Below, piece by piece: positions 59,646 through 63,359 of a stretch of DNA of 64,000 nucleotides. The position numbers were made by a program, and so were the translations under genes. The DNA is from Lactiplantibacillus mudanjiangensis. GTDB lineage: Bacteria > Bacillota > Bacilli > Lactobacillales > Lactobacillaceae. Location: positions 434,001-498,000 of the forward strand of contig NZ_BJDY01000003.1 in NCBI RefSeq assembly GCF_005405385.1, given 5' to 3'. How positions within the stretch are numbered: the stretch's first letter is position 1; each line of letters begins with the position of its first letter. Under the pieces are notes generated by a model. That model was not told the DNA's origin, ran no database searches, and worked only from the letters and a program-made list of their open reading frames with translations.

Positions 59646-60815
59646 TTAATGATGGATTAACAGTCGGACGCGGGCGACTGCTGGAATTTGGTTTAACGCG
59701 TCGATAAGTTGCTGACTCTGAGCATGATCTAGGTCGTCGACATCAATGATGGTATAGGCGGTACCAGCTTTAGCCGCATTAGCCATGGTCGCGATGTTCA
59801 AATTAGCTGCGGCCAATTTTTGGGTGATTTGGCTGACCATATTAGGCACATTTTCATGAATCACCGTAAAGCGGTAAGCGGCATTGAATGGCACGGTTAA
59901 GGTTGGCAAGTTGATGGCATATTGCACGTTACCGGTTTCTAGGTAAGTCATGATGGTTTGAGCTGCTTGGGTGGCCCCATTAACTTCAGCTTCCAATGTC
60001 GACCCACCAATATGTGGTGTGACGGTGACAGCGGCTTGATTGGCTAATTGGGGTTCGCCAAAGTCTGTGTAGTAATGGGCGATGTGACCAGTCTTGATGG
60101 CAGCTAAAACGGCAGTGTTATCGACAATGCCGCCACGTGCGTAGTTGAAAAGTTGCGCATTTTCTGGCATTGCGGCGATTTCTTTAGCACCTAAGAGGTT
60201 CAACGTGTCTTCATTTTTAGGTACGTGAACGGTGACGTAATCTGCGTGTTTAACAGCCATTTCAATACTACTTGCCCGTTGAACTTGTTTGGCAATGTTC
60301 CAAGCGGCATCGGCTGACAAGTAAGGATCGTAACCGATGACGTTCATGCCAAGGTTTAACGCAGCATTGGCCACCAGTGACCCGACGTGACCTAAACCGA
60401 TGACGGCTAAGGTTTTGCCTAATAATTCAGTGCCATTGAATTGCGTTTTATCATGTTCAGTTCGTTGTGAGACATCAGCCTCGGTATGTTGGGCTGAGTA
60501 ATTAGCCGCGGCCATCAAGTTGCGTGACGCTACAATCAGTAAGCCAATGACGAGTTCTTTGACAGCATTGGCATTACTACCAGGGGTGTTGAACACCGCC
60601 GTCCCATTGGCAGTCGCAACGCCTAATGGAATGTTATTGACACCAGCCCCCGCCCGCGCGATGACTTTGAGTGACTGTGGCAAGGCTTCTTGATGCAAAT
60701 CAACGGAGCGAATCAGGTAGGCGTCAGGTTGATCAGATTCATTGAGTTGATAATCATTAGTGAATTGCGCAAGTCCGGCTGGGGCAATAGCGTTATAAGT
60801 CTTAACTTGATACAT
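59646..60815 (-). CDS. serA: D-3-phosphoglycerate dehydrogenase
   Basis: 389 residues. First step of serine synthesis from 3-phosphoglycerate. 2-hydroxyacid dehydrogenase fold with NAD motif VIGLGHVGSLVANAA, catalytic segments NYARGGIVD and TPHIGGSTLEA, and a C-terminal ACT domain (FTVIHENVPNMVSQITQKL) likely for serine feedback. Start overlaps the serC stop by one base. Confidence 0.93.
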   Translation of the reverse strand: MYQVKTYNAIAPAGLAQFTNDYQLNESDQPDAYLIRSVDLHQEALPQSLKVIARAGAGVNNIPLGVATANGTAVFNTPGSNANAVKELVIGLLIVASRNLMAAANYSAQHTEADVSQRTEHDKTQFNGTELLGKTLAVIGLGHVGSLVANAALNLGMNVIGYDPYLSADAAWNIAKQVQRASSIEMAVKHADYVTVHVPKNEDTLNLLGAKEIAAMPENAQLFNYARGGIVDNTAVLAAIKTGHIAHYYTDFGEPQLANQAAVTVTPHIGGSTLEAEVNGATQAAQTIMTYLETGNVQYAINLPTLTVPFNAAYRFTVIHENVPNMVSQITQKLAAANLNIATMANAAKAGTAYTIIDVDDLDHAQSQQLIDALNQIPAVARVRLLIHH

Positions 60816-61903
60816 TAGGCATTCTCCTTTTTATAAATAGCTTCGAAATCAGCGAGATAGTCAACGAGGGCTTGCACGCCCGCTTTAGGCATGGCGTTGT
60901 ATAGACTAGCACGCATGCCGCCAACCAAGCGATGTCCTTTTAAGTTTAAGAGGTTATGATCAGTAGCGCCGGCAATGACGCGTGCATCGATTGCGGGGTT
61001 GCCGGTAACAAATGGCACGTTCATTAACGAGCGATCAGCTGGTTTAACGGGATTGTTGAATAAAGTTGATTGATCCAAAAAGTCGTAAAGTAGGGCCGCT
61101 TTGTCATGATTACGTTTTGCCATGACGGTTAAGCCACCTTGCGCTTTGAGCCATTTTAAAACGAGTCCAGCGGCGTAAATTGCAAAGACCGGTGGGGTAT
61201 TAAACATGGACCGTTTGTCGGCAAATAGCTGATAGTCAAGCATACTTGGTAAATCCTTAGCGTGACCGATCAAGTCATCGCGAACAATCACGATTGTAAG
61301 ACCAGCAGGGCCAAGGTTCTTTTGCGCACCGGCGAAGATCATGCCGAAGTCTTGAACGTTGTAAGGTTGACCCAAAAAGTTAGATGACATGTCGGCCACT
61401 AATGGGACGTTACCCGTGTCTGGGAGTTTGGTGTAAGTCGTGCCTTCAATCGTATTGTTGGTAGTTAAATGCACATAATCGAGTGCTTGGTTAACGGGTT
61501 GATCAGGGTAAGGCAAGGCAGTGAACTGATTGGTTGCACCTGTTCCTAAAATGTCGACTTGGGTATGGACACGTTGGGCTTCTTCAGCGGCGCGACTGGC
61601 CCAGTGCCCGCTATCTAACAAGCCGATATGGTGATGATTGGTGGCCAAGTTCAATGGTGCGGCAGTAAATTGTAAGGTCCCACCACCTTGAAAAAAGAGG
61701 ACACGATAGTTGTCGGGAATCTGCATTAAGTCGCGTAGATCGGCTTCAGCGTCATTAATGACTTGATCGAATAACGCGGACCGATGGGACAGTTCCATAA
61801 TGCTCATGCCAGACCCTTGAAATGAAGGTAATTCGGCTTGGATTTGTTGGATCACGGGTTGTGGCATCACGGCCGGCCCGGCTGAAAAATTATAAGTTGT
61901 CAT
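60815..61903 (-). CDS. serC: Phosphoserine aminotransferase
   Basis: 362 residues, PLP-dependent. MTTYNFSAGPAVMPQPVIQQIQ start, PLP lysine in FAGAQKNLGPAGLTIVIV and LMNVPFVTGN are hallmark SerC segments. It converts 3-phosphohydroxypyruvate to phosphoserine. First gene of the operon, behind an attenuator-like leader. Phosphoserine phosphatase (serB) is not in the window. Confidence 0.95.
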   Translation of the reverse strand: MTTYNFSAGPAVMPQPVIQQIQAELPSFQGSGMSIMELSHRSALFDQVINDAEADLRDLMQIPDNYRVLFFQGGGTLQFTAAPLNLATNHHHIGLLDSGHWASRAAEEAQRVHTQVDILGTGATNQFTALPYPDQPVNQALDYVHLTTNNTIEGTTYTKLPDTGNVPLVADMSSNFLGQPYNVQDFGMIFAGAQKNLGPAGLTIVIVRDDLIGHAKDLPSMLDYQLFADKRSMFNTPPVFAIYAAGLVLKWLKAQGGLTVMAKRNHDKAALLYDFLDQSTLFNNPVKPADRSLMNVPFVTGNPAIDARVIAGATDHNLLNLKGHRLVGGMRASLYNAMPKAGVQALVDYLADFEAIYKKENA

Positions 61904-61938: not shown

Positions 61939-62150
61939 TAAAAAAAGTCCTAGTAGTCGAATTAGACCACGAGGACTGTTAAAGTCAGTAGATTAATCGC
62001 CCTCGCATGAAATGTTGGTTTAAACATCCATGTTTAGGCTTGATGTACACAAAACTAGGCCAACACAGATGAATGTGTAGACCAGGAGGAGACGATTAAG
62101 TTAGCATTACGATTGATTGTCATATCATAAGCACTCCTTACTTTCGTTAT
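61939..62150 (-). promoter_or_regulatory. serC leader with attenuator terminator
   Basis: From the start site near 62150 the leader contains a Ser-rich 22-codon frame (62123-62055), several possible hairpins (GGTCTACACA / TGTGTTGGCC; AAACAT / ATGTTT), and a strong terminator AGTCCTCGTGGTC / GACTACTAGGACT with seven T (61976-61939). GCGAGG just upstream could pair with CCTCGT of the terminator arm as antiterminator. No T-box motif is present. Confidence 0.7.
62055..62123 (-). CDS. Candidate serine leader peptide of the serC operon
   Basis: 22-residue frame, MTINRNANLIVSSWSTHSSV then LA. Five of residues 12-19 region are Ser (SS, S, SS) encoded by TCC TCC, TCT, TCA TCT. AAGGAG lies ten bases before ATG 62123; another ATG at 62128 would give only two codons. 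The position between a perfect promoter and an intrinsic terminator fits ribosome-mediated attenuation by charged tRNA-Ser. Confidence 0.6.
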   Translation of the reverse strand: MTINRNANLIVSSWSTHSSVLA

Positions 62151-62156
62151 GAGATA

Positions 62157-62185
62157 AATTTACCAAGTTGTTTTCACTTTGTCAA
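62157..62185 (-). promoter_or_regulatory. serC operon promoter
   Basis: TTGACA (62185-62180), 17-base spacer, TAAATT (62162-62157). Confidence 0.85.
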
Positions 62186-62735: not shown

Positions 62736-63359
62736 ATGACAACTTTTTATATTGTTCGCCATGGTCAAACCACGGCGAATGCGCAGAACTTAAAACAAGG
62801 CACGATTAATACGGCGATTACCCATTTGAATGCGGTTGGTGAACAGCAAGCACAGGCTTTACATGCGGCGTTTGATATTAGTTTTGCCGACCGTTTAATT
62901 TGTAGTCCATTAGACCGAACCAAAGCGACAGCGGCTTTGTTAAATCATGGTCGCGAGTTACCGATGACTACCGATGATCGATTATTGGAAATCTCATATG
63001 GTCAATGGGATGGGCAAAAAAATGATGAGTTAAAAGCACGCTATCCACAATATTTTGATCAGGCGTTAAATGATGTCTTACCAACTTACGTTGAGGCTGC
63101 GACCGATGGGGAAACATTTGACCAGGTGATTGCGCGTGTGACGGCCTTTTTAACGGATACGGCAGCTAAGTATCCTGATGATCAAGTTATTGTCGTTACG
63201 CATGGCTTTACGGTCAAGGCGATGGTCTTAGCGGTGTTACAACCGACTGATCCGATGACGTTACCAGAACCAGAAAATACGAGTGTTACCAAGATTACAA
63301 TCGATTCAAAGACCCAACATCAATATTTGAGCTACTATAATCGTCAGATTGGTTTTTAG
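62736..63359 (+). CDS. Histidine phosphatase / phosphoglycerate mutase family protein
   Basis: 207 residues. Catalytic RHG motif at residues 8-10 (YIVRHGQTTANAQ), second His in VVTHGFTVKAM. Cofactor-dependent mutase-like branch, but many such small proteins are broad phosphatases; the true substrate is open. AAAGGAG precedes ATG 62736. The next gene starts 12 bases after the stop. Confidence 0.88.
   Translation: MTTFYIVRHGQTTANAQNLKQGTINTAITHLNAVGEQQAQALHAAFDISFADRLICSPLDRTKATAALLNHGRELPMTTDDRLLEISYGQWDGQKNDELKARYPQYFDQALNDVLPTYVEAATDGETFDQVIARVTAFLTDTAAKYPDDQVIVVTHGFTVKAMVLAVLQPTDPMTLPEPENTSVTKITIDSKTQHQYLSYYNRQIGF

Follow-up and report, generated by a model that had tools for sequence, protein, structure and literature searches.

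Sequence comparison makes it very probable that the serC-serA operon of Lactiplantibacillus mudanjiangensis is under the control of a serine-specific, ribosome-mediated transcription attenuator that senses seryl-tRNA. The operon lies in a stretch of 64,000 nucleotides, referred to here as the window, and the comparison of related sequences shows a conserved reading frame, conserved Ser codons, a terminator, and two co-varying sets of helices in its leader. With such a switch, the serine genes would probably be on only when serine-charged tRNA is short.

The serC-serA leader

On the minus strand of the window, a short ORF with a ribosome-binding site stands ahead of an amino-acid operon, and an intrinsic terminator lies between this ORF and the first gene, as in attenuators of the trp/his type (Table 1). 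A first-pass annotation of the same DNA had proposed the promoter, the 22-codon frame with AAGGAG and five clustered Ser codons (the core of the ORF reads TCC TCC TGG TCT ACA CAT TCA TCT), and the terminator before serC, and all three were recovered. A promoter resembling that of the window was seen in most upstream sequences from the genus. The 219-nt leader (62150 to 61932) had a folding z-score of −3.85, with one of 200 shuffled sequences at least as stable, and its terminator is separated from serC by 36 nt. A simple terminator scan listed none (3.7 expected by chance); the serC-leader terminator probably escaped it because its stem contains an internal mismatch. The start of serA overlaps the end of serC, and the serA-like protein, which scored 248.5 bits against TIGR01327 (under the cut-off of 454), has two 2-hydroxyacid dehydrogenase Pfam domains above the cut-off, with ACT_4 just below it. 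A serC-serA fusion, suspected from long open frames, was discarded when one genome was checked and found to have two separate ORFs.

Table 1. Features of the serC-serA locus, in window coordinates
Feature	Position	Strand	Remarks
Promoter TTGACA-17-TAAATT, TG before the −10	62157..62185	minus	10/12 consensus matches
Shine-Dalgarno AAGGAG of the leader ORF	62134..62139	minus	
Leader-peptide ORF, 22 codons, MTINRNANLIVSSWSTHSSVLA	62055..62123	minus	
UCC UCC, conserved putative sensing codons	62085..62090	minus	predicted stall site
Segment 1 (GGUCUACAC)	62075..62083	minus	within ORF; partner, segment 2
Segment 2 (CAUCUGUGUUGGCC)	62058..62071	minus	ORF end; partner, segment 1 or 3
Segment 3 (GCCUAAACAUGGAUG)	62025..62039	minus	partner, segment 2 or 4
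Segment 4 (to GCGAGGGC)	61999..62015	minus	partner, segment 3 (protector) or 5 (antiterminator)
Segment 5	61965..61976	minus	terminator 5' arm and antiterminator 3' arm
Intrinsic terminator, segments 5 and 6, then T run	61940..61977	minus	−16.3 kcal/mol
serC, phosphoserine transaminase	60815..61903	minus	first gene under predicted regulation; NF003764 and TIGR01364 above cut-off
serA-like phosphoglycerate dehydrogenase	59646..60815	minus	second gene; TIGR01327 best model

Two further features of the locus were noted. In this species, a two-codon ORF (ATG ATA TGA, within ATGATATGA at 62120–62128, minus strand) overlaps the leader start and lies nearer to the Shine-Dalgarno sequence than the leader ATG does; inspection by eye showed none in the remaining sequences examined from the genus. 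Beside serC-serA, a divergent histidine-phosphatase gene occupies positions 62736–63359 (plus strand). Its product scored 94.7 of 350 bits against the phosphoserine phosphatase PspA, and its best match was the alpha-ribazole phosphatase model, both below the cut-offs, while no SerB match above the model cut-off was found in the genome of the window. This phosphatase could be the enzyme for the last, missing step of serine synthesis. By eye, two leaders of genus g4 (L049 and L055) also have a divergent gene start of this kind upstream.

A proposed six-segment switch

The leader can form two mutually exclusive sets of helices, namely 1:2, 3:4, and 5:6, or 2:3 and 4:5; helices 1:2 and 2:3 cannot coexist because segment 2 is common to both. 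We infer that the ribosome stalls, that tRNA charging is sensed, and that read-through ensues, in the following way. When seryl-tRNA is ample, the ribosome would run on to the stop codon, located where segment 2 ends, segment 3 would pair with segment 4, the 5:6 terminator would form, and transcription would halt. When UCN-reading seryl-tRNA is scarce, the ribosome would stall at UCC UCC and cover segment 1, so that segments 2 and 3 would pair and segment 4 would be free to pair with segment 5; with 4:5 formed, RNA polymerase would read through into serC-serA. Without translation, helix 1:2 would form and the terminator would result. The first-pass annotation had proposed that a ribosome stalled by uncharged tRNA-Ser prevents the terminator; a terminator that can be switched by alternative helices agrees with that proposal, although the switch apparently comprises six segments and not a single hairpin.

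In the columns of the genus alignment, UCC UCC occupies 1–6, segment 1 occupies 8–16, the late Ser codons 19–24, and segment 2 20–32. With its usual footprint, a ribosome halted at UCC UCC would cover segment 1 and largely spare segment 2, and a ribosome at the stop codon would cover segment 2. The predicted geometry of the leader fits the stalling model.

Distribution of the leader peptide in the Lactobacillaceae

When 301 genomes of the family were searched with SerC, 132 had matches; removing G116 and G256 (weak matches only) and adding six genus genomes gave 136 serC upstream sequences. A leader, defined as a short ORF with a Shine-Dalgarno sequence and at least three serines within eight codons, was found in 81 of the 136, from 14 genera, compared with a mean of 8.8 and a maximum of 12 in 20 rounds of shuffling; the Lactobacillaceae sequences are related, so that these counts are not independent, and in G009, G015, and G019 the search window was wider than in the other upstreams and in the shuffles. 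At least four serines within eight codons occurred in 59/136 upstreams (1.25 in the shuffles, maximum 2). The next most clustered residue was Asn, with 36 (three in eight) and 10 (four in eight) of 136.

The leader was present in all sampled serC-bearing members of 12 genera (g1, 20/20; g4, 9/9; g14, 11/11; g38, 13/13; g41, 7/7; and seven smaller ones) and was patchy in g17 (5/14) and g40 (1/8). By the same rule, it was absent from the serC upstreams of g2, g3, g8, g10, g48, g51, g54, and g56. In total, 55 of the 136 serC genes had no leader by the rule used, indicating that the leader is dispensable for serC in the family. Within Lactiplantibacillus, the leader accompanied serC in each of the 20 sampled genomes that have this gene, and G018, from the same genus, had neither a serC match nor a leader. 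DNA matches to the leader region were found in 21 of the first 60 genomes, 20 of them in Lactiplantibacillus, the genome of the window included; the named loci belong to Lactiplantibacillus daowaiensis, L. garii, L. plantarum EGD-AQ4, and Companilactobacillus mishanensis.

For the frame test, 57 cores were picked by nucleotide pattern, which avoided choosing them by frame. An ORF with an ATG and a Shine-Dalgarno sequence ran through the core in the Ser frame in 56/57 and in the other two frames in none, the nearest ATG being 11, 12, or 13 codons upstream of the core. The shuffles and the frame test together rule out a chance serine cluster. Peptides from other genera read, for example, SSSWST, VSSSWSS, ISSSLST, VSSKST, SSSRSCCS, and ASSSTQS. 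The SSSRSCCS leader (L134, G216) has two Cys codons (TGC TGC) inside the serine cluster; cysteine is made from serine.

A terminator was present in 79 of the 81 leaders, with the picks in G172 and G321 weak and probably the wrong hairpin, and none was found in the leaders of G200 and G300. Among the 20 Lactiplantibacillus leaders, there was no case in which the terminator was kept and the frame or its Ser codons were lost, the outcome that the first-pass annotation had named as evidence against itself. Its reading of the locus as a serine attenuator is supported, since relatives keep the frame, the Ser codons, and the terminator together.

Extra DNA separates the terminator from serC in three genomes, approximately 0.5 kb of it in G009 (L013) and approximately 0.15 kb in G015 (L020) and G019 (L019), and upstream of it the leader is intact in all three. 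In leaderless genomes of g2, g17, and g56, tRNA genes were seen upstream of serC (L201, L202, L205, and L206).

A strict pattern hit 35 of the 301 family genomes, at one place each, with three hits of the reversed-pattern control, and all 35 places were upstream of serC, within approximately 0.3 kb except in G009 (approximately 0.7 kb). Among 299 genomes of the phylum, the same pattern gave 8 hits besides that of the window itself and the reversed-pattern controls gave 12, so that a wider spread in the phylum was rejected. Model R1 found three Lactobacillaceae genomes, that of the window included, among 198 genomes of the order and only that of the window among 200 of the class; its filter scored 22 candidates per genome, so that weak relatives could be missed. 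R1 recovered 18 of 20 chosen leader-bearing genomes (missing G192 and G026), 15 of which had also been used to build it; in the five independent genomes, it was clear in G240 and G075, weak in G225 and G062, and missed one. The only additional R1 hit, in G225 (E = 0.12), seems attributable to chance.

Serine codons

A cluster of end-product codons that is conserved across relatives is a mark of trp/his-type attenuators, and it is found here. The five clustered Ser codons listed in the first-pass annotation are not equally conserved. TCC TCC and the TCN that follows Trp were kept in 20/20 genus leaders; at the TCA position, Ser was found in only 7/20 (Thr, Pro, or Leu in the others), and at the final TCT position in 17/20 (Thr or Ala in the others). 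UCC UCC, with the UCN that follows, are most likely the working codons, because the late TCA and TCT lie in or beside segment 2, which would need to be free for antitermination.

One Trp and one Thr codon are also present in the core of most leaders, and a translation-coupled attenuator could in principle sense a cue other than serine, through these codons or through a slowing of translation by antibiotics or stress. We consider this very unlikely, because in other genera or species the neighbouring Trp is swapped for Leu, Lys, or Arg and the core Thr for Ser, Ala, or Ile while Ser is retained, no other residue comes close to Ser in clustering, and the target genes make serine. Sensing of serine itself is the reading followed below.

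The Ser codons of the leaders were strongly biased. Across the 81 leader ORFs, Ser was encoded by 356 UCN and 18 AGY codons (95% UCN), compared with 597 UCN and 423 AGY codons in the 41 long ORFs of the window; UCC was the commonest Ser codon in the leaders (158/374) and the rarest in the long ORFs (66/1020), where the leaders represent 14 related genera and the background is the window of one genome, which may include a few shadow ORFs. In Bacillus subtilis starved of serine, ribosome density reportedly rose at UCN and not at AGC/AGU codons (PMC3862929, in excerpt), and the UCN preference of the leaders, as analysed here, agrees with this slowing. A wider proposal can be put forward tentatively, as a possibility somewhat short of probable: the leader would be a natural isoacceptor-specific serine sensor, the cell would read tRNA-Ser in two ways (a T-box at serS and a peptide at serC-serA), and the switch would occur in six-segment and compact architectures. 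On this view, the leader would be nearly all UCN, and most often UCC, because only the UCN-reading tRNA-Ser species would discharge early.

Alternative helices and covariation

Helix 1:2, formed in the genus by GGUCUACAC with GUGUNGGCC, contains serine codons. Tested leader by leader, it reached p ≤ 0.05 in 69 of 72 leaders (the nine without the S-[WLKR]-S anchor were left out), compared with 23/60 in an earlier, differently bounded test. In the segment test, from which seven compact leaders had been dropped beforehand and ten too-short ones were dropped within (n = 60), helix 2:3 reached this level in 54 leaders, and helix 3:4, the weakest, in 24. For the antiterminator, tested in 77 leaders (81 less two without a terminator and two with weak picks), 4:5 complementarity reached p ≤ 0.05 in 62/77, and a leader's own terminator arm exceeded the mean of the arms from other genera in 65/77. 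The 15 misses included all seven compact leaders (g7 and g17), in which the stretch from the stop codon to the terminator is only 35–37 nt; once the ORF end, which pairs with the terminator arm, was included, 3/7 reached p ≤ 0.05. These leaders look like a compact version of the switch, a suggestion that we make with modest confidence.

Of 62 references, the 20 from the genus were aligned. In these Lactiplantibacillus sequences, 98.2% of the cells of the terminator state were paired (slid controls, at most 42.1%), and 7/30 pairs had changed on both sides, a value reached by 0/500 shuffles. The read-through state had 93.4% of its cells paired (slid controls, at most 53.0%). Its covariation score and paired percentage were reached by 0/500 shuffles, while its 3/23 pairs changed on both sides, a weak signal, were reached by 92/500 and its further pair types by 95/500. 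The two parts of helix 3:4 had 91.3% and 97.1% of their cells paired, and seven of the eight pairs of helix 1:2 were invariant within the genus.

Across nine genera, 40 sequences were aligned (41 were picked, and G225 was omitted for its length). Helix 1:2 was paired in 83.6% of cells (slid controls, at most 46.6%), with 21 cells changed on both sides (slid controls, at most 8); 6/10 of its pairs had changed on both sides, which 14/500 shuffles reached and the slid controls did not (at most 4), and its further pair types were reached by 87/500 shuffles. Helix 2:3 was paired in 85.1% of cells (slid controls, at most 53.4%), with 30 cells changed on both sides (at most 19) and a covariation score of 0.271 (at most 0.108); 7/10 of its pairs had changed on both sides, which one of 500 shuffles reached and which slides of −3 and +1 equalled. 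Compensation in helix 1:2 can be followed directly: AAG pairs with CUU in some g4 leaders and GG with CC in others, and UCUUC pairs with GAAGG in g6 and g40 and UCUAC with GUAGG elsewhere, so that in g6 and g40 the change of a Thr to a Ser codon is matched by a change in the pairing partner.

RNAalifold recovered only hairpin 1 and the terminator from 36 sequences, and hairpin 1, the terminator, and part of 3:4 from the 20 genus sequences. By the pairing tests and the alignments, the leader has an antiterminator that is mutually exclusive with the terminator and shows covariation, with helix 3:4 and some covariation measures weaker. The first-pass annotation had suggested an alignment over lactobacilli as its check, and across relatives the Ser codons are kept and the alternative helices co-vary.

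T-boxes, Rfam families, and other readings

No Rfam family, the T-box included, matched the window at the gathering score, and the six hits in the leader region up to E = 10 were all below it; the leader could therefore be added to Rfam as a family. T-box control of serC was rejected by model and by motif: as the first-pass annotation had stated from the letters, there is no T-box at the serC of the window (no RF00230 match with the covariance model), a regular-expression search of 80 further serC upstreams found no T-box motif, and there was no T-box in 20 loci without a recognised leader. The RF00517 serC motif had no covariance-model match in the window or the leader region, and the His, Trp, Leu, and Thr leader families had no gathering match in the window and were absent from the six leader-region hits.

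These searches also bear on the reading in which the RNA is a riboswitch or is bound by a protein, with the conserved nucleotides forming an aptamer or a protein-binding site and the short frame present by coincidence. The core UCCUCCNNGUCUAC is conserved beyond coding need, and for the alpha-proteobacterial RF00517 the excerpt of its description reports no leader peptide (PMC1273637). Against this, the ATG, the Shine-Dalgarno sequence, and the frame were kept in 56/57 cores in the Ser frame only; the Ser codons vary synonymously between genera (TCC TCC, TCT TCC, TCC TCA TCA, and TCA TCA TCA); the double duty of segments in 1:2 and 2:3 explains part of the nucleotide conservation; and there is no Rfam match at gathering. 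We therefore regard this reading as very unlikely. Still less probable is that UCCUCC is kept as an anti-Shine-Dalgarno sequence hiding the ribosome site of the leader and not as Ser codons. UCCUCC is complementary to GGAGG-type sites, and some g4 leaders match over 7 bp by eye (UUGGAGG with CCUCCAA), but leaders of g6, g12, and g13 with TCC TCA TCA, TCA TCA TCA, or TCC TCA match more weakly and keep Ser. The two roles could coexist.

The genome of the window had 37 T-box matches, 11 of them above the family cut-off. One (L124, 1500–1760), below the cut-off and with a clear TGGGTGGTACCGCG, ends approximately 50 nt before serS, so that the cell seems to have two tRNA-Ser sensors of different kinds, the serS T-box and the serC-serA peptide. 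The peptide switch is found in T-box-rich bacteria whose genome has a T-box just ahead of serS, and the leader offers a test of why lineages pick one tRNA sensor or the other. It may also serve as a natural readout of the charging of serine isoacceptors, and as a serine-responsive switch for food-grade lactobacilli.

Comparison with known systems

The enterobacterial his operon attenuator has a six-segment layout. The serC-serA leader resembles it in the tandem end-product codons of the leader peptide, the terminator ahead of a biosynthetic operon, and the alternation of helices 1:2, 3:4, and 5:6 with 2:3 and 4:5; it differs in its serine codons, its genes (serC-serA), its occurrence in the Lactobacillaceae, and in matching no Rfam leader family at gathering. 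The first-pass annotation had regarded peptide-type serine attenuation as notable, and we found no recognisable report of a serine leader peptide in the open-licence literature, a body of text that leaves most subscription papers outside and so allows for a prior report.

Peptide attenuators have been described for His, Leu, Thr, Trp, Ile/Val, and Phe (PMC3766115, in excerpt). His leader peptides at hisS/hisZ in bacilli (PMC2965389) and in some other Firmicutes (PMC9413887), and the Leu-rich ilv leader of Staphylococcus aureus (PMC5794164), are, from the excerpts of these sources, peptide attenuators where T-boxes usually serve, as here, but for other amino acids and other genes. In the Ser T-box of Paenibacillus serA (PMC8002221, in excerpt), tRNA-Ser charging likewise controls serine synthesis via termination, but the RNA binds the tRNA directly without translation, with the specifier AGC. 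RF00517 also lies upstream of a serC-serA operon, but in alpha-proteobacteria and as a short hairpin thought to act on translation (PMC1273637, in excerpt). The SinR serine sensor of B. subtilis shares the slowing of ribosomes at UCN and not AGY codons, the leaders described here being UCN-rich, but it has no attenuator and works through the SinR level (PMC3862929, in excerpt). The class of mechanism is known, and serine as its amino acid appears to be new.
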